Positions 46,801 to 62,697 of a stretch of DNA of 64,000 nucleotides are shown piece by piece (position 1 is the stretch's first letter; every line of letters begins with the position of its first letter). Below the pieces are notes generated by a model that saw only the letters and a list, made by a program, of their open reading frames with translations, did not search any database and was not told the origin of the DNA. The position numbers and the translations under genes were made by a program. Location: the NCBI RefSeq assembly GCF_000407185.1, contig NZ_KE136482.1, forward strand, positions 1,054,001 through 1,118,000. Direction: 5' to 3'. Source of the stretch: Enterococcus malodoratus ATCC 43197. Lineage in GTDB: Bacteria > Bacillota > Bacilli > Lactobacillales > Enterococcaceae.

Positions 46801-46820
46801 GTTTAGTTAAAACTAGGAAT
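46801..46820 (+). repeat. Left inverted repeat of segment 1
   Basis: 20 bp starting GTTTAGTTAA, identical to the complement of 48375-48394. The inner TAGTTAAAACTA is itself nearly palindromic, as expected for a tyrosine-recombinase core site with two arms. Confidence 0.9.
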
Positions 46821-46832
46821 CAGACTAAAAAC

Positions 46833-46879
46833 ACCGTCATACCAACGTTTACAAGCGATGGATGACGGTACCTGACGGC
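46833..46879. promoter_or_regulatory. TGACGG motif cluster near left end of segment 1
   Basis: ACCGTCA (46833-46839, inverted), TGACGGT (46863-46869) and TGACGGC (46873-46879); the last two are ten bases apart, one helical turn. Matching motifs lie at the other end and in segment 2. They may be arm-type recombinase sites. Confidence 0.5.
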
Positions 46880-46959
46880 TTTTACGTATGTTTGTGAATT
46901 TCACTTTATTCTTTTTAATAACTTTTCGGTAAAAAAATAAATATTTGCTTAACAAACCT

Positions 46960-46975
46960 AAGTAAGCGCTTACTT
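46960..46975. promoter_or_regulatory. 16-bp palindrome, cre-like, between recombinase and left repeat
   Basis: AAGTAAGCGCTTACTT is perfectly palindromic and close to an ideal cre. AGCGCTTACTT recurs at 60893-60903 at the same place in segment 2. Its role is unknown; CcpA binding is a guess. Confidence 0.45.
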
Positions 46976-47033
46976 CGATGGAGCAAAAAAGACTCACCAA
47001 ATAGCTGAATATCTTTAAAAAAACGCCAGCTAT

Positions 47034-48149
47034 TTAACTATAATTTCTATTTGCGGTTTCCATTTGGTAAATGACCTCTACTCTTTGTTCCAACATTGAG
47101 TCCGCATAAGTATCTAATGTTAGTTTTGTCGAAGCGTGTCCCAACAGTGCACTAACGGATAAGATATCGCCTTGTACTTCCAAGCAACGAGTCGCAAACG
47201 TATGGCGTAGTTGATGAAAGTGGATATCTTCTAATCCACATTTCTTTCGGATTCGATGAAAGTGATAAGTTAGTAACCGTGGCTCCATCGGATGGTTGTT
47301 CGTAGAGAAGACAAAAATTCCTTTGGATTTGCGGCGATACTTCATTAATTCCTTCCGAAGAGATTTGCTAAGTGGAACTGAGCGGATACCTGAATCGGTT
47401 TTCGTTGAACCAATGACCAGTTGTGTCTTTTGATCTTTTAATTTTAAGGCGATTCGTTGATATGTCTGATTCACCTGAATCAGATTGCGTTCAAAATCAA
47501 TATCGCTCCATTTTAATGCAGCGATTTCTCCAATGCGCAGACCTGTATATAGTGCTAAGTAAGTCGGTAATCCCTTACCAGTTTTTTCTTTTAAAGCAGT
47601 CTTTTCAAGATTGAACTGTTCCTTTTTCGTTAATGCACGAATGATTGGTTTACGAGATTTTGGTAATTTTAACTCCGAGAACGGATTATCTTTGATCTTT
47701 TTATTTTCTTTTGCGGCGTTTAAACATTTGCCTGTTATTCGCAGAATTACTTTCATCGTAGACAGATGTAATCCTTTCTCAGACCATTTGGTGACCAACT
47801 TTTTCCCGATATCTGGTGTTAGTTCATTCAAATAATGGTGCCCGATAAAAGGAAAAACATACTTCGCCAACTTGTATCGATAGGAACTATAAGTAGAAGG
47901 TTTTATCTCATTTTGAATTTCTTGCAGCCACTCTTTTCCCCATTCCTCCAATGGAATACAGGCATCCCCATAAATTTCACGATGTGTATGGTAGTGTGCC
48001 TTCAAGGAATACAGCTTGATCCGTACCTCTTGGAAAGCTTTTCCATAGATATAACCATATTTAATCTGTCCGTTGGCCTTGTACCCCTTTTTGTATCGTC
48101 CTTCCCATCGTCCATCTTTTCTTTTGTAGATATTTTCACCTTTGCGCAT
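47034..48149 (-). CDS. Tyrosine recombinase (integrase) inside switch segment 1
   Basis: 371 residues. An N-terminal AP2-like/arm-binding region (GENIYKRKDGRWEGRYKKGY), a SAM-like core-binding domain (about 70-160) and the catalytic domain with Arg in LYTGLRIGEIAALKW, HxxR in HQLRHTFATR, His in LLGHAST and the Tyr nucleophile in LTLDTYADSM. About 55-60% identical by eye to the recombinase at 60967-62073. It resembles Tn916/phage-type integrases, but no excisionase, attachment-site duplication or cargo is present. The flanking inverted repeats point to site-specific inversion. Confidence 0.9.
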   Translation of the reverse strand: MRKGENIYKRKDGRWEGRYKKGYKANGQIKYGYIYGKAFQEVRIKLYSLKAHYHTHREIYGDACIPLEEWGKEWLQEIQNEIKPSTYSSYRYKLAKYVFPFIGHHYLNELTPDIGKKLVTKWSEKGLHLSTMKVILRITGKCLNAAKENKKIKDNPFSELKLPKSRKPIIRALTKKEQFNLEKTALKEKTGKGLPTYLALYTGLRIGEIAALKWSDIDFERNLIQVNQTYQRIALKLKDQKTQLVIGSTKTDSGIRSVPLSKSLRKELMKYRRKSKGIFVFSTNNHPMEPRLLTYHFHRIRKKCGLEDIHFHQLRHTFATRCLEVQGDILSVSALLGHASTKLTLDTYADSMLEQRVEVIYQMETANRNYS

Positions 48150-48162
48150 AATTCTTTCCTCC

Positions 48163-48181
48163 TGACGGCTTAATTGACGGT
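48163..48181. promoter_or_regulatory. TGACGG motif pair upstream of recombinase 1
   Basis: TGACGGC (48163-48169) and TGACGGT (48175-48181), 12 bases apart, just before the recombinase start. Segment 2 has TGACGGC and TGACGTT with the same spacing at 62092 and 62104. They could bind the recombinase and also autoregulate it. Confidence 0.5.
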
Positions 48182-48291
48182 AAATATTTCGTTACTTTAA
48201 ACGATTTCCGCCTTAATCAACTTCTTTTTAATGTGATTCTCTGTTAACAGAATATTAAATATGTCTTTTTTTAATAAATTAAAACTATATA

Positions 48292-48320
48292 TTGATTATT
48301 CCTAGGCATTATCATATAAT
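48292..48320 (+). promoter_or_regulatory. Outward promoter of segment 1
   Basis: TTGATT (48292-48297), exactly 17 bases, TATAAT (48315-48320), reading right. It lies 54 bases inside the right repeat. In the orientation given it fires toward the terminator at 48456; inverted, it would read into WxL operon 1. Confidence 0.72.
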
Positions 48321-48374
48321 TAAATCAAATCAATTCATCTTTTTATTAGATAATTGTTTTTTAGAAAGAATTTT

Positions 48375-48394
48375 ATTCCTAGTTTTAACTAAAC
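48375..48394 (-). repeat. Right inverted repeat of segment 1
   Basis: Exact reverse complement of 46801-46820. AAGAATTTTAT precedes it and also occurs, in direct orientation, just left of the other repeat. Confidence 0.9.
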
Positions 48395-48693: not shown

Positions 48694-49419
48694 ATGAAAA
48701 AAGTACGTAGAACAACTATTTTAGATGATAGGAACTGGTCACCGTTATGGGAACGGTACCTCAGAGCGGCGACTGTTTTTGATCCGCTGAAGGCTCACGA
48801 GATCACCTGTATCGTGCCGATTCCTGGGCGTTCTGGTGTTATCCTATTTACCACGAATGGGATCTTTTGCAGCTCGCAAAGCGCCTTAAAGACCTTGCAG
48901 CATTTCGCCTTTGCCCACTGTTTTCCGGAGTACAGCATCCTTGCTTCGGTTCTTAAGGACATCGGGGAGTTCGGGAAATACAAGTTTCCTTGGGCTTGTC
49001 CTTACTTCACCCTATTTCCACTAGAAACGATTCACCATACGATCTGGATCAATCCGCTCAAAATCGAGGATATCTATACTGTAGAGAATCAGTATTACGC
49101 GAGAGTGATTGATGGGCCGGATATTTATGTGCCGATTAGTCGTTACTACATTTTGTTACGTGCAGAGATTGCCTGTGGTATTTTAGCGGCGATTCGCCAA
49201 GACGCGTTTCATTATTCGATGCTAGGTACTTGTCCTAGTGACTATGTTCCTCTGTCGAATACGACTTTTTCCATTAGTCTTGGTAAGCGAACACTGTTGA
49301 ATCAATTCGTCACCCGAACTTGTGAAATCAATCGACGATACCAACGCGCACGCTTCCTCCACTATTATGATCAATTAGTCGACAACCCAGAGAACCTCTC
49401 TTGGGAGAATTGGAGCTAA
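48694..49419 (+). CDS. ComK-like protein
   Basis: 241 residues. The middle portion matches the layout of the ComK competence activator: KYKFPWACPYFTLFPLETIH and IWINPLKIEDI stand where ComK has KPPIMV...FLFPTLS...CGWI, followed by IDGPDIYVPISRYYILLRAE (ComK: GKTMELPISYNSFENQ). The fit is by eye and moderate. If real, it binds DNA as a regulator. AAAGGGGAG is a strong ribosome-binding site. It reads away from the WxL operon and ends at a strong terminator. Confidence 0.5.
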   Translation: MKKVRRTTILDDRNWSPLWERYLRAATVFDPLKAHEITCIVPIPGRSGVILFTTNGIFCSSQSALKTLQHFAFAHCFPEYSILASVLKDIGEFGKYKFPWACPYFTLFPLETIHHTIWINPLKIEDIYTVENQYYARVIDGPDIYVPISRYYILLRAEIACGILAAIRQDAFHYSMLGTCPSDYVPLSNTTFSISLGKRTLLNQFVTRTCEINRRYQRARFLHYYDQLVDNPENLSWENWS

Positions 49420-54022: not shown

Positions 54023-57000
54023 TTAAGGCTCATTCACCATTAACCACTCGATTTTCCCGTCGTAATACGCTCCTTTTTGGGCGATGTTCCCTGGAACCAG
54101 CAGGTTTACTGAATCAAACCCGATGTTTGTTTTAAACTTTCCTTGCCCAGCAGCTACGCTAGTCGATCGCCATAATTGTATGGTCGAATTATCTGACGGA
54201 AGCAGGGTCGTTGCATCCGATAACCCTTCAAAATCTTGCGTCACTGGCTGCCAAGAGTCACCGTCTGTTGTTTGTTCCAGCTGTTTATTGAAAGAGATTT
54301 GGGCTCCGGTCAACTGTTGATTACTGCCTTCTGGTGTTTGTAACGGCGACAGCCGTGCAGCGAAGGACCAGTTCGAATTTATCCCAATATTTTCTAGTTT
54401 GATTCCAATGTCATTTGTTCCCTGATGATCAGATAGGCGTGCAATCGTTGTACTTGGACTGACCGCTTGAACTCCAAAATGGAAATTCGGTGTGTCTGAA
54501 ATATACAGTCCTGGTTGTCGTTGATTGGTTGTGAACGTCCGTGCAGATGTTTGCTCAGACTCTCCACCTTGATTGACCACACTACATTTCACATGATACG
54601 TTTGCCCAGCATTCAAGGTTTTGATTTTCACGGTCGCCTTTTTTGCTGTCGGATCAATCGTGAAGTCTTCTATTGAAGGACTATTCGGACTAGCGTTAAT
54701 CTCAGAAAAAGTTGTACCGTCCGTACTTAAATAGATTTTTACATCACTCGGATGTGCGGCTGGTTGATCGGGATGATCCCCTGCTGCTTGATAATCAACA
54801 GAAAACTCCGCGGTGGCACCATTCTCCGCAACTGGTGAATTCAGCGTCGGCTCACTAAGGTTAGATACAATATTTTTAGTGTAGAAGTAGTAGTTGTCTG
54901 ATCCTTCTGGCTGACCGATAGGACCGACATCCGTTCCTTCTGCATTTTTAAATTTTACCCAGCCTCTGTATCGTGTCCCGGGAGTCAGCCCGTTAATCAT
55001 CGTCGAAGAATAGGTGCCGTTTCTAGTTATTGTATGTTGTAAATTGCTCACACGCTGCGTCCAGTCGTTTTCATTTGCTTCTTCATTTTTGTAGGATTCC
55101 GTGTAAACGATCCCGTCGTTTGCATTTTGCGAGATATCTCCAGTATATGTCCCTTGTTTCAATTGAATACCTGTTGCCGTCGCAGTTGCTTGATCAAAAA
55201 CCGGCGGGGAAATATCCAGTGGAACGCCTAATGTTGTAAACTCGCGAGAGGTCGAAAATTCCGACCAAACATTACTGCTGTTTCGAACACGGTAACGAAG
55301 ATAATACCGTGTTTTGGCATTAAGCTTCGATAGTTTAAAGGTTACACCCTTGGTCCCCGTATTAAAGACTCGATCTGTGATTGCCGGTGTGGTTTCTGCG
55401 GTAATGGTAGACCACGTCGAGTTATCGGTACTGATTTGGATATCCGTTGACGTCGGGTGAGCTGCCGTATCTCCTGCATTGTAAGTGGCACTCACGTCCG
55501 CTGTCGCATCCGCCGCAGCTGTTGGTGCACCCAATGTCGAAATAGCTGGCTGATTAACTGTATTTGGTGTATAGAAATAATCACTCCAGCCAGAGTATCT
55601 CAATGTGCCGCCGTAATCCTTGATTGCTACTCGTCCTCGATAGCGTGTGCCGGCAGCTAAACTTCCTACAGTCGCACTGTTGTAACTTCCTCCAGTAGTA
55701 TTCGTGTGGCCTAAATTCGTTACTTTATCTTGAATCGTTGTCCCATCATTAGGTGTTACTTGTACGATTCCTTGTGTAGTAGTTTGAAAAATGTCTCCTG
55801 TATAGGCTTTCCCAACCAAGGGAATACTCGTAGCTGTTGCACTTCCTTGAGTAAACGTTGGTGCCGTGAGAGCTAATGCCACTGAATTGGTCGTAAACTC
55901 TCGTGAAGCTGAAAAGTCTGACCATACATTACTGCTGTTTCTGGCACGATACCGAACATAGTATCTTGTCCTTGAATTGAGCTTTGATAAAGAAAAGCTC
56001 ACAGTTTTACTTCCAGTAGCAATACTTGGCGTCGTCGTTGCTGGAGTCGTGCTTGTGCTAAGAGTCGTCCACGTAGAGTTGTTTGTACTTATCTGTACTT
56101 CAGCTGTTGAAGCATGCGCTGCGACTTCGCCAGTATTATACGTCGCACTTACAGCGGCTGTCGCATTATTCGCAGCTGTCGGTGTATTCAATGTAGGCGT
56201 CGCTGGTTGATTAACGGTATTAGGTGTATAAAAATAGTCACTCCAAGCGGAGTATCTCCAAGTCCCACCATAGTCCATTATTACGACTCGTCCTCTATAT
56301 CGTGTTCCTGCGAACAATCCTGATATAGTCGCACTATTGTAGGTTCCTCCTTGAGTCTGTGTATGACCTAAATTAGTAATCCTGTCCTGAAGCGTCGTTC
56401 CATCATTTGAGGTTACTTGTACTTTTCCTTGTGAATTCGTTTGATAAATATCACCGGTATATGCTTTTCCAACCATTGGAATACTTGTCGTTGTCGCACT
56501 TGCTTGAGTAAATGTCGGTGCAGTAATCGTTAACGACATGGCTCCGGTAGTAAATTCACGTGCAGTTGAATAGCCGGACCAGACATTACTGGCATTTCGA
56601 ACACGATAGCGAACGTAATACCTCGTTTTGGCATTGAGTTTTGATAATGTAAATGTCACATTCTTACTTCCAGTATTGAATACTCGATTGGTGATTGCCG
56701 GCGTTGTATCCGCGGTGATGGTAGACCACGTCGAATTATTCGTACTTATCTGTATGTCAGTTGAGGTGGGGTGTGCCGCCACATCCCCCGCATTATAGGT
56801 AGCACTCACATTTGCTGTCGCATTATTTGAGGCTGTCGGTGTATTCAATGTAGGAGCCGCGGGCTGGTTAGCGGTATTAGGTGTATAAAAATAGTCACTC
56901 CACCCGGAATACCTCCAAGTCCCTCCATAGTCCTTGATTGCCACTCGTCCTCTATAACGTGTTCCCGCGGTTAGTCCTGATACAGTCGTACTATTATAGG

Positions 57001-58384
57001 TACCGCCTTCCGTTATTGTATGACCTAAATTCGTTACTCTATCTTGGACAGTCGTTCCATCATTGGACGTTACCTGAACTTTTCCTTGCCCACTTGTTTG
57101 AAAAACATCTCCAGTATATGCTTTCCCTACCATCGGAATAGTCGTGGCTGCAGCACTCGCTTGGGTGAACGTCGGGGTTGTGATGGATAAAGCAACTGCG
57201 GAATCGGTAGTGAATACATATGGTGAATGGATACCTTTTGAATCAACAGAAGAGGTTTCTTGCGGATGGAAAAATTCCGCGGAAAATGTTCCGCCCTCAT
57301 AAATTTCAAAAAGCCAGACATAGTAAGTTGTATTCGGTTTTAAATTTGTCATTACTCCGCCAAAGTAAGCAGACGGCATAGATGCAGCTCCGGTATGGTT
57401 GTTTTTCCAAGGTGTTACCACATTGGTACCTTCAGCCTTCAACTGTAGCCACAAATTATTTGGTATTTTTGAAGCATTAGTTAAATTAGCACAAAGTCTA
57501 GTAATACGAGTAGGATCAGTACTCCATACCGCGTATTGAGTGTATTGAGGGCGTTCATACTTATGACGAAGGTAGCTAATGGTGGCTTCTCTCCTCTTTA
57601 TTCCAGCTATAGTTACATTTGCATACGCCTTGTTATAGTATTGTCCGTTATACACAACATCACTAACAGCCCTTGGTGTGATATCCCTTTGAGGGTCCTC
57701 CTCTTCCGTACTTTCTTCAGTTGATTGAGGCTCTTCATTATTTTTTTCTGGTTCCGCAGGAGTATCTGCGGTATCGTCCTGCTCAAATAGATACTGGCCT
57801 TTATGAAGTGTTCTTACTATTGATTGTTCATCATCGGACTCCTCTATGACATAATCTAAAACCAGTCGATAATTTTGTTCATCCAAAATATCATCGGTTT
57901 CAAATTTGAAAGGAGCGTCATTTAGTATGTGATCCTCACCATCCTCAAAGACATTCACCTCAAACCAACCACCATCTGCATCTTTTGCCTGCAAAGCGAC
58001 TGCTTGAATCGTCGTTATTGAATCCTCATTCGGATCAGATCCTAAGTTAATTTCTCCAGTCAGTTTCTCTTGCTCTATCTGTGCTTGCATGACCGGATGC
58101 GAAGCGTTTGCCTCGTCTTCTTTCGATAAGTCACGCTCATCATATGCTTGTTCAGCAAGAATCTCTTCGTCTTGTTCTTCCTTGACCGGTTCTTCCTCTG
58201 AAGTTGTTGTTTCGTTTGAAACGCCTAATACATCACTAGACATTGTCGTAAGTTCCCCAGAAGACGCTTCTGTTAGGCTTGTCTCTTCTGAGTTTTGTTC
58301 GATTGCCACACTGATCAAAGGCTGAATCACCATACTCGATACGATGCTTGTAATAAGGAAACAGGAAAGCCATTTTTTACTCAC
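54023..58384 (-). CDS. Giant WxL-domain surface protein with 219-residue tandem repeats
   Basis: 1453 residues from a GTG at 58384, chosen because it overlaps the LPXTG gene by eight bases just as in cluster 1, and because a signal peptide follows (SKKWLSCFLITSIVSSMVIQ); the frame opens at 58438. An acidic region (about 60-240) precedes three near-identical FN3-like units of 219 residues (each beginning near APTFTQAS and holding RYRGRV, DYGGTWRYSGWSDYFYTPNT, TRYYVRYRVRNSSNVWS). A divergent fourth unit follows, then a C-terminal WxL domain (WSFAARLSPLQTPEG, final IEWLMVNEP). It is probably an adhesin held on peptidoglycan. Confidence 0.85.
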   Translation of the reverse strand: MSKKWLSCFLITSIVSSMVIQPLISVAIEQNSEETSLTEASSGELTTMSSDVLGVSNETTTSEEEPVKEEQDEEILAEQAYDERDLSKEDEANASHPVMQAQIEQEKLTGEINLGSDPNEDSITTIQAVALQAKDADGGWFEVNVFEDGEDHILNDAPFKFETDDILDEQNYRLVLDYVIEESDDEQSIVRTLHKGQYLFEQDDTADTPAEPEKNNEEPQSTEESTEEEDPQRDITPRAVSDVVYNGQYYNKAYANVTIAGIKRREATISYLRHKYERPQYTQYAVWSTDPTRITRLCANLTNASKIPNNLWLQLKAEGTNVVTPWKNNHTGAASMPSAYFGGVMTNLKPNTTYYVWLFEIYEGGTFSAEFFHPQETSSVDSKGIHSPYVFTTDSAVALSITTPTFTQASAAATTIPMVGKAYTGDVFQTSGQGKVQVTSNDGTTVQDRVTNLGHTITEGGTYNSTTVSGLTAGTRYRGRVAIKDYGGTWRYSGWSDYFYTPNTANQPAAPTLNTPTASNNATANVSATYNAGDVAAHPTSTDIQISTNNSTWSTITADTTPAITNRVFNTGSKNVTFTLSKLNAKTRYYVRYRVRNASNVWSGYSTAREFTTGAMSLTITAPTFTQASATTTSIPMVGKAYTGDIYQTNSQGKVQVTSNDGTTLQDRITNLGHTQTQGGTYNSATISGLFAGTRYRGRVVIMDYGGTWRYSAWSDYFYTPNTVNQPATPTLNTPTAANNATAAVSATYNTGEVAAHASTAEVQISTNNSTWTTLSTSTTPATTTPSIATGSKTVSFSLSKLNSRTRYYVRYRARNSSNVWSDFSASREFTTNSVALALTAPTFTQGSATATSIPLVGKAYTGDIFQTTTQGIVQVTPNDGTTIQDKVTNLGHTNTTGGSYNSATVGSLAAGTRYRGRVAIKDYGGTLRYSGWSDYFYTPNTVNQPAISTLGAPTAAADATADVSATYNAGDTAAHPTSTDIQISTDNSTWSTITAETTPAITDRVFNTGTKGVTFKLSKLNAKTRYYLRYRVRNSSNVWSEFSTSREFTTLGVPLDISPPVFDQATATATGIQLKQGTYTGDISQNANDGIVYTESYKNEEANENDWTQRVSNLQHTITRNGTYSSTMINGLTPGTRYRGWVKFKNAEGTDVGPIGQPEGSDNYYFYTKNIVSNLSEPTLNSPVAENGATAEFSVDYQAAGDHPDQPAAHPSDVKIYLSTDGTTFSEINASPNSPSIEDFTIDPTAKKATVKIKTLNAGQTYHVKCSVVNQGGESEQTSARTFTTNQRQPGLYISDTPNFHFGVQAVSPSTTIARLSDHQGTNDIGIKLENIGINSNWSFAARLSPLQTPEGSNQQLTGAQISFNKQLEQTTDGDSWQPVTQDFEGLSDATTLLPSDNSTIQLWRSTSVAAGQGKFKTNIGFDSVNLLVPGNIAQKGAYYDGKIEWLMVNEP
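55190..57166 (-). repeat. Three tandem 657-bp repeats within the giant WxL gene
   Basis: The landmark encoding FTQ(A/G)S recurs at 57161, 56504, 55847 and, degenerate, 55190: exactly 657 bases each time. Long stretches are almost identical at DNA level (for example the segment encoding YSGWSDYFYTPNT). Slippage or recombination could change the repeat number. Confidence 0.88.
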
Positions 58385-58742
58385 TGTTCTCTCTCCCTTC
58401 TCGTTCGTAAATACCGATGAAGAAAAAAAGGAAAACAAATAGCAGGGTTGCCCATCCTAAACAATAAAGGGCAAAGCTGTATTCCTCGCCAGTCATTGGC
58501 AAACGTCGTTGATCTGATTTAGTGAGATAAGAAGTTTCATACCCTCTTTCGGTTTTCGTCGTTTTGATTACCGGGAGATCAATCGAAGGATCGATTTCCT
58601 TTTCTTGTTCTTGATTAGAAAATGTGATAGCTAAAGAGGTTGATGTGGTGCTAGCTGCACAAGAATAGATAGGAGTTAGCAGCAGAAAGGCGCTGCTCAC
58701 TACCCCTAATAATACGAAGGCTGCTGGTCTCTTTTTATTCAT
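58377..58742 (-). CDS. Small LPXTG-anchored surface protein of WxL operon 2
   Basis: 121 residues: signal peptide, a short central part, sorting signal LPMTGEEYSFALYCLGWATL and the positively charged tail KYEREGRENSE-type end. Sortase substrate. Counterpart of 44335-44778 but without the long serine linker. Confidence 0.82.
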   Translation of the reverse strand: MNKKRPAAFVLLGVVSSAFLLLTPIYSCAASTTSTSLAITFSNQEQEKEIDPSIDLPVIKTTKTERGYETSYLTKSDQRRLPMTGEEYSFALYCLGWATLLFVFLFFFIGIYEREGRENSE

Positions 58743-58766: not shown

Positions 58767-59846
58767 TTATAGTGCCTCCCATTTTTTTCTGCGTACATAG
58801 AGACACCCTATTAGAATGACACTCGCAACTCCGATTAAGATAACCACTAAGGGCACCCATTCTTGATACGTAATCGTGAAGCTAGCCTCTTCATTGATCT
58901 TCTTGGCTTGTTTCTCTCCAACGGTAAAATCTTTCTTCCATTCCCAGGTATGCTCTCCTGATTGTGCCCGAACATGCAGCGTGTAGGTACCGCTTTTAAT
59001 CGGATCGATTCCCCAATTGGTCGCGAAATCAAACTGAGAATTCGGGGCCATACGCATGGTGTTCGCTGTACGTTTCTTTAAGATTTCACGGCTGCCCTTT
59101 TTATACAACTTGGTTTCAATCGTCAGGTCGTCTAAAACTTTTGCTTCGGGATTTTGCATTCGAGCTTGAATCACTCGTTTTCCTTGATGGACCGTTGGTT
59201 GTACTTTTAGAAGATTGAGCGAGGAGCCATCATCATATACCTCTGAATCCTCAGTGACCAAAAGGCCGATCCGATAACCAAAGGTAGAGCTCAAGCCCTC
59301 AGCCGCTTCTGACGAATCAGCTTTCATGATACAAATCGTTCCGCCCTTTACACCTTCAAAGGTTTCTTTAGGAGGTGTGACTGTGAGGGTGACGACTTTT
59401 TCTTCATAATTTTCAACCGTGACCGTGCTCTCGGAGATTGAGGTAATTTCTTCGATTGAATTTTTCAAAGTGGAATCTCTTCTATACTCGTCATTGTCGT
59501 AATCGATCACACCATTTTGATTTGTGTGGGCATTTTTTACATAGATGTTGACCTTTGCTGGCTTCACATTCGTGCTTCGAATTTTTATCGTCAGCTCTTG
59601 CGGCTTATTCGGTTCTGCCTTGATGAAATAAAAGCCCTTTTGCGAGTCGATTTGAGTCGCTGTTTTAACTGGTTCAACAGCAAATCCCACGTCATTTTCT
59701 GGCTGTTCTTCCTTCACGCTTGTATTTTTAGTTTCATCCGCATAGCCATAGGAACTATAAAAAATGCAGCCAGATATGAGCAATAGACAACAAAGACTTC
59801 TCCTTATTAGGGAGAAGACATCCTTTTTGGCAAACTGTTTTTCCAT
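58767..59846 (-). CDS. DUF916/DUF3324 WxL-interacting protein
   Basis: 359 residues: signal peptide, DUF916 (about 45-165, DVGFAVEPVKTATQIDSQKG), DUF3324 (about 170-310), C-terminal membrane helix (WVPLVVILIGVASVILIGCL) and a basic tail. Paralogue of 44765-45835. It is the WxL-binding scaffold of operon 2. Confidence 0.92.
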   Translation of the reverse strand: MEKQFAKKDVFSLIRRSLCCLLLISGCIFYSSYGYADETKNTSVKEEQPENDVGFAVEPVKTATQIDSQKGFYFIKAEPNKPQELTIKIRSTNVKPAKVNIYVKNAHTNQNGVIDYDNDEYRRDSTLKNSIEEITSISESTVTVENYEEKVVTLTVTPPKETFEGVKGGTICIMKADSSEAAEGLSSTFGYRIGLLVTEDSEVYDDGSSLNLLKVQPTVHQGKRVIQARMQNPEAKVLDDLTIETKLYKKGSREILKKRTANTMRMAPNSQFDFATNWGIDPIKSGTYTLHVRAQSGEHTWEWKKDFTVGEKQAKKINEEASFTITYQEWVPLVVILIGVASVILIGCLYVRRKKWEAL

Positions 59847-59913: not shown

Positions 59914-60597
59914 TTAGAATGAATCAGTTAGTGCCCAAGTGATATTGCCATGGAACGTTTGTCCAGCAAAGTTTGTGTTTGAATCCCCTGCTGCTAATTC
60001 CAATGTCATTGAATCAATCGGCAATGCATATCCATGATCGCTAATACTTGCATCTGTTTTCGCTAATTCTGCAGAAGTTCCATCTAGTGATAACTCCGCA
60101 ACACCCGCTGTAACACCAGAACCTACGGTAATATCTGCAGCGTCAGCAGTGGCAGTCGCTGCAGTCGGTTCGCTAGGAGCAGTCCAATCTTTCATTGTTC
60201 CTACCGCAACCTTAATTTTTCCTGAGTTGATTACTTGGGCCGGTGCTACTGGGTTCGTCAGGCTAGAAGCACTGGCAGATAATGTCCATTCATTATTTGA
60301 CTCGTTGCTGTCTCTTCCATCGTACAATGCTACATATTTCCCACTCGTTCCAATCGATTGCGTCACCGCATTTCCTGCAGTGTGTGCATTGCCGAAGTCA
60401 ACGAGATTAGGAACAAAACGTAATTGCAGCTCGTCAGGATCAGGGTTCGGGTTAGGAACATGACCATCCGCTTCAAATTGGACTCTTACTGGTGTATCCA
60501 ACGTATCCGCAAACCCACCAATACTTCCCGCAAAAGCCATCCCTAAAATAGATAAACTGGCTATGCATAATAGTAACTTTCCTTTTAAATCCTTCAT
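59914..60597 (-). CDS. WxL-domain cell-wall protein (first gene of WxL operon 2)
   Basis: 227 residues: signal peptide, a short Pro/Asn linker (HVPNPNPDPDELQLRFVPN), WxL domain with NEWTLSASASSLTNP and the C-terminal ITWALTDSF. The final motif has WAL, within the W-x-L pattern. It opens operon 2, 122 bases from the inverted repeat of switch segment 2. Long plus-strand shadow frames across it are not genes. Confidence 0.92.
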   Translation of the reverse strand: MKDLKGKLLLCIASLSILGMAFAGSIGGFADTLDTPVRVQFEADGHVPNPNPDPDELQLRFVPNLVDFGNAHTAGNAVTQSIGTSGKYVALYDGRDSNESNNEWTLSASASSLTNPVAPAQVINSGKIKVAVGTMKDWTAPSEPTAATATADAADITVGSGVTAGVAELSLDGTSAELAKTDASISDHGYALPIDSMTLELAAGDSNTNFAGQTFHGNITWALTDSF

Positions 60598-60624
60598 AAT
60601 AATTCTCTCCTTATTTTATATTCT

Positions 60625-60648
60625 AAACAGAAAAAGAACTTTCTGTTT
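60625..60648. promoter_or_regulatory. Palindrome in the WxL operon 2 leader
   Basis: AAACAGAAA-AAGAAC-TTTCTGTTT, a perfect 9-bp inverted repeat just ahead of the WxL gene. It corresponds in place, not in sequence, to 46722-46740. Confidence 0.4.
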
Positions 60649-60718
60649 TAGCATTGGGACGACTTTCTGGTAAAATCAATAAATCTGGTACAAAATAGCC
60701 AAAGAAAGTCGAATGTTT

Positions 60719-60743
60719 TTTACTTAGTATTGTGAAAACCAAG
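60719..60743 (+). repeat. Left inverted repeat of segment 2
   Basis: 25 bp, perfect match to the complement of 62296-62320. The core shares a loose pattern (GTTTT.AC) with the segment 1 repeat when both are read leftward. Confidence 0.92.
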
Positions 60744-60798
60744 GAGGACAGGAAAACCATTGATCCATCAACCTTTCCAGACTGTTCTTGACTAAAAC

Positions 60799-60805
60799 TG
60801 ACGGC
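60799..60805 (+). promoter_or_regulatory. TGACGGC motif near left end of segment 2
   Basis: A single TGACGGC, 56 bases inside the left repeat; segment 1 has the same heptamer 53 bases inside its left repeat (46873). Confidence 0.45.
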
Positions 60806-60966
60806 ATATACAATTGATAAATAGAATTCTCCAGATCTTTTTCAACCTTGTCCGGCAATAAATTGGAAACAAAAACCCTCCCATATAAAGAGAGCGCTTA
60901 CTTAAAATTAAAAAAAGGAAGAGCCCAAAATTCTCTCTCAAATTTTTTTTGATTTCGAATAGTGTT

Positions 60967-62073
60967 TTATTGTAGTATTTTTTCCATTTGATAAATGACC
61001 TGAATACGTTGCTCAATCATGGAATCCGCATAGGTATCTAAGGTTAACTGCGTTGACGTATGTCCCAGCATCGCACTCACGGATAAGATATCTCCTTGTG
61101 CCTCTAAGCACCTTGTCGCAAATGTATGTCGTAATTGATGAAAGTGAATATCCTTGATACCGGCCTTTTCCCGCAACCGATGGAAATGATACGTCAGTAA
61201 GCGTGGTTCTATCGGCCTGCTATTGCATGAAAAAACATAGTGACTGCTTGTTTTTTTCTTTAGCTGAAGTAGCAGCCTTCTCAATTTGCTGCCAAAGGGC
61301 ACGATCCGTATCGCTGCATCTGTTTTGGCTGTGTCATAAACTAGCTGCGTTTTATGTGTGCCATCTGCAAGTGCTAGTCTCTGGTATGTATGAGAAACAT
61401 GGATGATGTTTCTCTCAAAATCAATATCCGACCAGCATAACGCTGAGATCTCTCCGATTCGCAAGCCCGTGTATAAAGCTAAATAAGCAGGTAATCCGCG
61501 AACTCCGCCTTCTTTTAACGCAGCCTTCTCTAGAGTCTGCTGCTCCTTTTGTGACAATGCGCGGATTTTTCTCTTTTCATCCTTGGGCAATCGAATGGAA
61601 GAAAAGGGGTTTTCCTTTAAATAATCCAGTTTCTTAGCCTGATTGATGCATTGGCATAAAATTCGCAACGTGACTTTTATCGTAGATCCTCTTAGGCCAT
61701 ACCGCATCCACTGCTTGATCAGTTCTTTCCCGATTTCCGGTGTTAATTCATTTAACAGGTTTTCTCCGATAAATGGAAAGACATATTTCGTTAGTTTGTA
61801 TTGATAATTTGCATAGGTAGAAGGTTTGACCTCCCCTTGTATCCTCTTTAACCATTGATACCCCCATTCCTCAAGCGGAATACAAAAACTTCCACGGGTA
61901 CTTTGAATGCTCTGATACTGAACCTTTAATGGATAGAGCTTCATCCGTACCTCGTGCAGGGATTTTCCATAAATATACCCGTACTTTACCTGACCATTTG
62001 TCTTTCGGCCTTTCTTATACCGCCCTTCCCATCGACCATCTTTTCTTTGATAAATATTTTCTCCTCTGCGCAT
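60967..62073 (-). CDS. Tyrosine recombinase (integrase) inside switch segment 2
   Basis: 368 residues from the ATG at 62073 (GGAG eight bases upstream; it aligns with the paralogue's start, MRxGENIYxRKDGRWEGRYKKG). Catalytic residues: Arg in LYTGLRIGEISALCW, HQLRHTFATR, His in MLGHTSTQ, Tyr in LTLDTYADSM. The C-terminal VIYQME is shared with recombinase 1. A likely promoter is TTGACC-N17-TATTTT (62177-62205). Confidence 0.9.
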   Translation of the reverse strand: MRRGENIYQRKDGRWEGRYKKGRKTNGQVKYGYIYGKSLHEVRMKLYPLKVQYQSIQSTRGSFCIPLEEWGYQWLKRIQGEVKPSTYANYQYKLTKYVFPFIGENLLNELTPEIGKELIKQWMRYGLRGSTIKVTLRILCQCINQAKKLDYLKENPFSSIRLPKDEKRKIRALSQKEQQTLEKAALKEGGVRGLPAYLALYTGLRIGEISALCWSDIDFERNIIHVSHTYQRLALADGTHKTQLVYDTAKTDAAIRIVPFGSKLRRLLLQLKKKTSSHYVFSCNSRPIEPRLLTYHFHRLREKAGIKDIHFHQLRHTFATRCLEAQGDILSVSAMLGHTSTQLTLDTYADSMIEQRIQVIYQMEKILQ

Positions 62074-62091
62074 AGAAATTCTCCTTCTGAT

Positions 62092-62110
62092 TGACGGCGA
62101 AAATGACGTT
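62092..62110 (+). promoter_or_regulatory. TGACGG motif pair upstream of recombinase 2
   Basis: TGACGGC (62092-62098) and TGACGTT (62104-62110), 12 bases apart as in segment 1. Confidence 0.45.
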
Positions 62111-62176
62111 CTAAACAGATTGTCATTTGCCAGATTTTTCATCTCGTACTTTTGTGTCATTAATTTCGAACTTTCA

Positions 62177-62205
62177 AAAATAGAAACCCGCGTCATTTTG
62201 GTCAA
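62177..62205 (-). promoter_or_regulatory. Probable promoter of recombinase 2
   Basis: Minus strand TTGACC (62200-62205), 17 bases, TATTTT (62177-62182), about 100 bases before the start codon. It is internal to the segment, so the recombinase stays expressed in either orientation. Confidence 0.55.
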
Positions 62206-62212
62206 AAAAACA

Positions 62213-62241
62213 TTGAATTATCATTTAAAATAAATTATAAT
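62213..62241 (+). promoter_or_regulatory. Outward promoter of segment 2
   Basis: TTGAAT (62213-62218), exactly 17 bases, TATAAT (62236-62241), reading right, 54 bases inside the right repeat, the same distance as in segment 1. It is divergent from the recombinase promoter. Confidence 0.75.
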
Positions 62242-62295
62242 GATGTTAGTGGTTAATTTTAAGGTTATTAATTTTTATTTAGCGATTAAAATTAA

Positions 62296-62320
62296 CTTGG
62301 TTTTCACAATACTAAGTAAA
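62296..62320 (-). repeat. Right inverted repeat of segment 2
   Basis: Exact reverse complement of 60719-60743. Confidence 0.92.
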
Positions 62321-62360
62321 TTTAAGGTTATATTTAATATTCCATTTTCGTGATCTCATT

Positions 62361-62395
62361 AAAAAACATCTCTTCAAATTGAAGAGATGTTTTTT
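62361..62395. terminator. Bidirectional terminator just outside segment 2
   Basis: A6-CATCTCTTC (62361-62375), five-base loop, GAAGAGATG-T6 (62381-62395). It would end the outward promoter's transcript after about 145 bases, mirroring 48456-48493. Confidence 0.88.
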
Positions 62396-62697
62396 ATGTG
62401 TATTGACGTTTTCCCTTCTAACGATTTGTATTTCAGACAGCTCCATAACTACTTTTCGAAACTGACCTTTCACTTTTTTTTACAGTACAAATAAAACTTA
62501 TGTTGAGAAGGATTCTCATCCAACGAGATGAACATTAACATAAGAAATCTGATGCCAATTATCAAAACCCAAGCTATCTAAGTACTGTTTTTGAAGGAAG
62601 CCACACATCAGTATTCTCAAAAAAACAAAAAAAGGGATCGGAAAATTCTCCGATCCTCACTCTAAATTCTTTTTTTCTCTATACTAAATACATTTTC
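62396..62697. other. Intergenic region, no gene seen
   Basis: No convincing frame. It contains one terminator-type hairpin (GGATCGGA 62635-62642 with TCCGATCC 62649-62656, T-run on the minus strand) whose parent transcript is unclear; an antisense RNA from the par remnant is possible. Confidence 0.5.

Follow-up and report, generated by a model that had tools for sequence, protein, structure and literature searches.

A putative self-contained invertible promoter switch in front of a WxL operon of Enterococcus malodoratus and its relatives in other enterococci

What does a recombinase gene enclosed by perfect inverted repeats do in front of a surface-protein operon? We addressed this question in Enterococcus malodoratus ATCC 43197, in a stretch of 64,000 nucleotides (contig NZ_KE136482.1, positions 1,054,001 to 1,118,000, hereafter the window), in which such a segment, segment 2, lies at 60719-62320 beside WxL operon 2. 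The original prediction described it as an invertible promoter switch, and this is supported by the side on which the promoter lies, by the identity of the paired crossover centres and by one naturally inverted relative. We consider it very probable that segment 2 is a self-contained invertible promoter switch for WxL operon 2. Its features are as follows.

60719-60743: left inverted repeat (T arm), on the 3′ side of the recombinase gene, toward WxL operon 2
60722-60744: T-arm core site of 23 base pairs (bp), with predicted crossover centre TTGTGAA at 60730-60736
60799-60803, minus strand: putative CGTCA arm-type repeat by the T arm
60893-60899, minus strand: AAGCGCT, part of a palindrome
60967-62073, minus strand: tyrosine recombinase of 368 amino acids, whose open frame reaches a TTG at 62205
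62092-62108, minus strand: two putative CGTCA arm-type repeats, at 62104-62108 and 62092-62096, immediately upstream of the recombinase start
62177-62205, minus strand: candidate promoter for the recombinase gene, TTGACC-N17-TATTTT (a pattern match alone), lying back to back with the promoter-like sequence at 62213-62241
62213-62241, plus strand: outward promoter-like TTGAAT-N17-TATAAT, a sequence pattern present on the same side in relatives
62295-62317: P-arm core site, with predicted crossover centre at 62303-62309
62296-62320: right inverted repeat (P arm), on the recombinase 5′ side
62360-62396: terminator-like hairpin just beyond the right repeat, ahead of the outward promoter in what we predict to be its OFF orientation

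Segment 2 spans 1602 bp, and the 25-bp inverted repeat reported around its recombinase is perfect (25/25), scoring 25 against a best of 15 over 500 flank shuffles. The outward promoter-like sequence was located as described, with 54 bases separating its -10 box from the right repeat. In the window it reads rightward, whilst WxL operon 2 reads leftward from 60597; it is thus aimed away from the operon, and the deposited orientation is the predicted OFF state. The direction of the promoter in the deposited sequence qualifies the original prediction.

In the mechanism that we propose, the segment's own integrase-type recombinase would recombine the two inverted core sites and so turn the segment over. 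In the ON state the single outward promoter would read into WxL operon 2; in the OFF state, predicted for the window, it would read away and into the terminator-like hairpin, which has 18-bp perfect arms (-14.6 kcal/mol). Strand exchange would occur within the core sites, in a 7-bp centre that differs from cassette to cassette and is common to both sites of any one cassette. The CGTCA repeats at both segment ends would bind the N-terminal domain of the recombinase, and those by its start codon may also permit self-repression.

The window contains a second such cassette, segment 1, with the following features in and beside it.

46801-48394: segment 1, a paralogous cassette spanning 1594 bp, with repeats at 46801-46820 and 48375-48394 (20/20 identical)
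47034-48149, minus strand: segment 1 recombinase
48292-48320, plus strand: promoter-like TTGATT-N17-TATAAT, with 54 bases from its -10 box to the repeat
48694-49419, plus strand: conserved 241-amino-acid protein beside segment 1

The two segments agree in length and in the distance from repeat to WxL start (122 bp to 60597 for segment 2, 120 bp to 46681 for segment 1), as had been noted. They had also been called two independent instances of one architecture: their repeats and crossover centres do differ, but the recombinases are paralogous (65% identical), so the segments are not independent inventions.

We searched 20 genomes of the genus for recombinase matches at E 1e-40 or better, of which 12 were positive. 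Leaving aside six matches (five fragments and one weak full-length match, G010:C10), this gave 123 recombinase loci in the 12 genomes, the window copies included, and both flanks were readable at 104 of them. With a repeat threshold set at a score of at least 13, in a search that required a 7-bp seed and favours uninterrupted identity, an inverted repeat was found at 98/104 loci, as compared to 1/104 with shuffled flanks and 17/104 when one flank was taken from another locus, the last as expected if the sites are related. The original prediction had proposed this very check on other Enterococcus recombinase loci, and flanking repeats are the rule there (97 without L110, a locus above threshold with a site unlike the others, which we dropped as spurious). 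Removal of L110 reduced the collection from 106 to 105 cassettes, which are spread over the 12 of 20 genomes with up to 24 per genome. E. malodoratus itself has four copies: the two cassettes of the window, a third on contig C4 (C4:159417) and a fourth elsewhere on C2 (C2:1136984). A family-level search at 1e-60 was positive in 37/105 genomes and 4/17 genera, and among the 40 loci sampled from it (the family set) a repeat at threshold was present in 35 and absent in five.

The repeats of the cassettes align on a palindromic 23-bp core, consisting of two half-sites round a centre, and this centre is the least conserved part of the core between cassettes. Within cassettes the pattern is the reverse: across all 105, mismatches between the paired sites number 0/735 positions in the 7-bp centre versus 189/1452 in the half-sites, a contrast obtained with a repeat search that uses a seed and rewards identity, yet leaves the position of that identity within the palindrome free. 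All three centre mismatches of the unfiltered set belonged to L110, and the 35 cassettes of the family set contain none. When different cassettes of one genome were paired, the centre was the same in only 14/1400 comparisons. Strand exchange by tyrosine recombinases requires an identical centre in the paired sites, and the identity seen here would be hard to explain for relic repeats. The differing centres suggest how many similar recombinases could coexist in one genome. Selection for distinct centres within a genome was considered and is unsupported, same-centre pairs being found in 7/700 comparisons within and 54/4760 between genomes.

The promoter-like sequence is likewise a property of one side. 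A strict promoter pattern points outward on the P side in 72 of the 94 cassettes for which a 3′-side gene was scored, and was found in 0/94 operon leaders and 1/94 T-inner regions (inside the T arm), with shuffled P-side sequences giving 4 and shuffled leaders 1. A -10 box lies 15-95 bp inside the P arm in 100/105 cassettes (median 57), as compared to 6/105 on the T side. Classified by simple motifs, the first gene on the T side (n = 105) encodes a WxL protein in 27 cassettes, a DivIVA-like protein with the motif MFGxGKQKK in 27, a winged-helix regulator in 14, an LPxTG protein in 13, DUF1149 in 6 and another product in 7, with none in 11; Pfam was run on example T-side genes, and the DivIVA match falls below its cut-off. 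The 87 recognised operons begin 85-332 bp from the T arm. Operon type follows the recombinase tree much more closely than expected by chance: the 88 labelled rows require 14 changes, whereas 200 shuffles of the labels never gave fewer than 42.

We then considered which kind of recombinase is involved. Translation of the segment 2 enzyme likely starts at the ATG at 62073, downstream of AGAAGGAG, rather than at the TTG at 62205; a database entry 99% identical to it is also 368 amino acids long. Pfam matched PF00589 (E 1.4e-25, the catalytic domain) and PF14659 (SAM-like), both of them tyrosine-integrase families and not those of a Hin-type serine recombinase. The catalytic motifs R, HxLR, H and Y start at residues 202, 312, 336 and 346, and R205, H312, R315, H338 and Y348 are invariant across 43 aligned sequences. 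In an AlphaFold model, residues 7-59 form three strands plus one helix and are followed by the integrase body, with block-mean predicted local distance difference test values above 90 over residues 11-60. The closest folds are the Tn1549 and lambda integrases, and full-length lambda Int aligns with the model over 371 columns, though with a root-mean-square deviation of 10.8. The protein looks like an integrase with a predicted N-terminal arm-binding domain, for which Pfam gave no match up to E 10.

Repeats that such a domain might bind are found inside the segments. CGTCA occurs in 103/105 P-inner regions, where it nearly always lies 20-70 bp upstream of the start of the recombinase, and in 99/105 T-inner regions, where it is mostly found 40-70 bp inward of the T arm, whilst the outer flanks, used as a control, contain it in 2/105 and 14/105. 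In the family set, CCGTCA is present in 35/35 and 30/35 cassettes. These repeats are probably arm-type sites, separate from the core sites. A further element of the T-inner region is the AAGCGCT palindrome, which we take to resemble a CcpA cre site: the heptamer recurs at 46965-46971 in segment 1, and AAGCGCT or AGCGCTT is present in 51/105 T-inner regions as compared to 0-2/105 in each of three other regions; catabolite control is a possibility.

One relative shows the reverse arrangement. Locus L127, probably from E. pallens, carries its operon on the promoter side, whereas the matching operon flank of L126 (95.6% identical over 4.7 kilobases) lies on the opposite side. This match starts 3 bp beyond the repeat; the two segments, in reversed orientation, are 87% identical. 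L127, which precedes an MFGxGKQKK operon, is the only clear copy in the ON orientation, and no inverted copy was seen in the strain of the window. Another flipped copy, L094 in genome G007, has a gene of the 242-amino-acid type (described below) on its T side, and was not counted as ON because its recombinase frame is broken and no surface operon was seen on its other side.

Draft assemblies offer indirect signs of populations of mixed orientation. Six contigs of genomes G005 and G011 end in a core site (L068, L070, L074, L131 and L133) or 2 bp outside it (L136), where about 0.1 would be expected by chance, as calculated from rounded contig numbers and genome sizes. Among the 120 homologues listed, of 4433 at E <= 1e-30, the longest contig is the size of a segment (1570-1690 bp) in 12, as compared to 5 at 1440-1560 bp and 1 at 1700-1820 bp.

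Several observations weigh against the proposed switch. Six of the 104 loci with both flanks have no repeat at threshold, and flanks of different loci attain it in 17/104. Terminator-like hairpins do speak for the switch, being commoner in P-outer (64/105, with 99 having a full flank) and T-inner regions (74/105) than in the T-outer (23) and P-inner (30) controls, but they were scored by a lax criterion that 29/105 shuffled T-inner sequences also pass. The far flanks of L127 and L126 share only about 15/20 bases next to the repeat (by eye), with BLAST aligning nothing beyond, and the two are therefore not strict orthologues. The contig evidence is indirect, since breaks between contigs can have other causes. 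If an assembly breaks in an arm, the contig should perhaps end exactly at the limit of arm identity, but the sole broken arm with a mate contig (C19 and C37 of G011) stops 3 bp before that point; no mate contig was found for the arm searched in G005 or for two G011 arm variants, the arms of L070 and L131 lying outside this search. The skew in orientation fits poorly: a recognised operon lies on the 3′ (OFF) side of the recombinase in 87/105 cassettes and on the promoter side in 1, with 17 unclassified, whereas segments that flip freely should show the two orientations in more balanced numbers. The family set is similar: a scored gene adjoins the 3′ side in 30/35 cassettes, 9 of which have one on each side, while 1 has such a gene solely on the promoter side and 4 have it on neither, and no reversed flank pair was found in the set. 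In E. raffinosus and E. gilvus, the 11 unbroken copies all carry the gene on the 3′ side as well. Such a skew could result from rare switching limited by self-repression, from counter-selection of ON cells in culture or from regulated switching. As the arm sites and inner core halves would travel with the segment, they could not alone favour one orientation.

Among the alternatives, the one that fares best is a two-sided switch, whose promoter would drive the WxL operon when facing one way and, when facing the other, a regulator gene past the opposite repeat. The product of 48694-49419 belongs to a conserved type of protein of about 242 amino acids, whose genes start some 275-303 bp outside the P arm of segment 1 and of several other cassettes and read away from the segment, so that the outward promoter may transcribe them when OFF for the operon; a model of the protein weakly resembles LytTR DNA-binding domains by fold comparison, and Pfam gave no match for the segment 1 copy. 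We regard this arrangement as possible but rather unlikely.

The skew raises a second alternative, namely that the window orientation is the functional one, with recombinase and WxL operon co-transcribed, the repeats being relics or serving another use, and no flipping taking place today. That the two are codirectional in 87/105 cassettes and reversed in 1 is what this explanation would predict. It has to contend, however, with centres kept identical in 105/105 cassettes while the half-sites diverge, with a conserved promoter-like sequence facing the other way, with terminator-like hairpins often lying between recombinase and T arm, and with the inverted relative L127, and we judge it very improbable. 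Weakest of all, and in our view scarcely credible, is the reading of the cassette as a small integrative element, or what remains of one, normally excised by its integrase: the fold is indeed nearest to the Tn1549 and lambda integrases, but the paired core sites are inverted and not the direct repeats expected of attachment sites, so that inversion instead of excision would follow, the open reading frames of segment 2 include no cargo gene of at least 80 amino acids besides the recombinase, and recognised operons begin at the short distances from the T arm given above.

On the operon side of segment 2 the window contains the following genes.

59914-60597, minus strand: WxL-type surface protein, first gene of operon 2, with a C-terminal WxL pattern (its E. 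gilvus counterpart is annotated WxL)
58767-59846, minus strand: WxL-interacting protein (WxLIP_PGBD and WxLIP_HBD)
54023-58438, minus strand: 1471-amino-acid protein with matches to Pur_ac_phosph_N, Rha78A-type Ig, F5/8C and fn3, encoded further downstream on this strand

The WxL-type protein gave no Pfam match at 1e-3. The operon leader (60598-60718, minus strand) contains two potential hairpins, seen by eye, CGACTTTC...GAAAGTCG and AACAGAAA...TTTCTGTT.

Named records that share the cassette layout include megaplasmids of E. raffinosus and E. gilvus. In the annotated megaplasmids pCX012922 and pCR1A the recombinase gene is labelled a site-specific integrase; the gene adjoining the E. gilvus copy is annotated as WxL domain-containing, and the repeat of that copy scores only 12. 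In a second genus (g13, L213-L252), 6-13 copies are present in each of the 22 positive genomes listed; the sampled copies mostly precede genes of about 230 amino acids, and their promoter pattern is weaker than in the genus of the window. An E. faecalis plasmid typed as mobilizable (LR962555.1, locus L212) encodes a recombinase 46% identical, with a repeat score of 22, and no outward gene was scored next to this cassette.

How does this arrangement relate to known systems? The fim switch of Escherichia coli is also a tyrosine-recombinase promoter inversion that concerns a surface structure and is often mostly OFF, but its recombinases are encoded outside the segment of about 300 bp and have no arm-binding domain. 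Salmonella Hin/fljBA resembles the cassettes in carrying the recombinase gene inside an invertible segment with an outward promoter; Hin, however, is a serine recombinase, whereas the enterococcal enzyme is a tyrosine recombinase of integrase architecture. With the Tn1549, Tn916 and lambda integrases, which integrate and excise elements, the enterococcal enzyme shares fold, catalytic motifs, the predicted arm-binding domain and separate arm-like repeats, but differs in having inverted paired core sites on either side of a promoter. In Clostridioides difficile, recV is located away from its switches, whereas the enterococcal 1.6-kilobase segment carries its own recombinase gene. The C. difficile flg, cmr and pdcB switches are otherwise alike in being short invertible segments with inverted repeats; flg and cmr use RecV, while the pdcB switch, of 174 bp with 19-bp imperfect repeats, has an internal promoter and a recombinase that is unidentified (PMC9286219). 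The hsdS inversions of E. faecalis (phasevarions) are recombinase-mediated DNA changes (PMC9779914); they shuffle specificity genes of a restriction system, whereas the enterococcal cassettes concern promoters of surface operons. The cassette system is not described in the accessible parts of PMC9286219, PMC9244547 (which cites a survey of invertible promoters), PMC9779914 and PMC3675006, and a full-text literature search, whose coverage largely left out subscription papers and preprints, found no description of such cassettes.

Taken as a whole, the evidence supports a promoter switch whose kind is known and whose form is uncommon, with the recombinase aboard and of integrase type, paired cassette-specific centres and a great expansion in some enterococci. 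What appears new is a self-contained promoter switch driven by an integrase, present in many copies with mostly different crossover centres. We somewhat favour a broader picture, in which some enterococci maintain up to about two dozen self-contained, self-addressed inverters that carry individual lambda/Tn916-type integrases and 7-bp crossover addresses. Operons for WxL proteins, pilins, cell-wall hydrolases and regulators would then flip independently, and clones would be mostly OFF with rare ON combinations. If this is true, these enterococci and a related genus would vary their surface by combinatorial promoter inversion, with an integrase-type recombinase acting as a resident switch, and the strong OFF skew would allow the way in which such switches are controlled to be put to the test.
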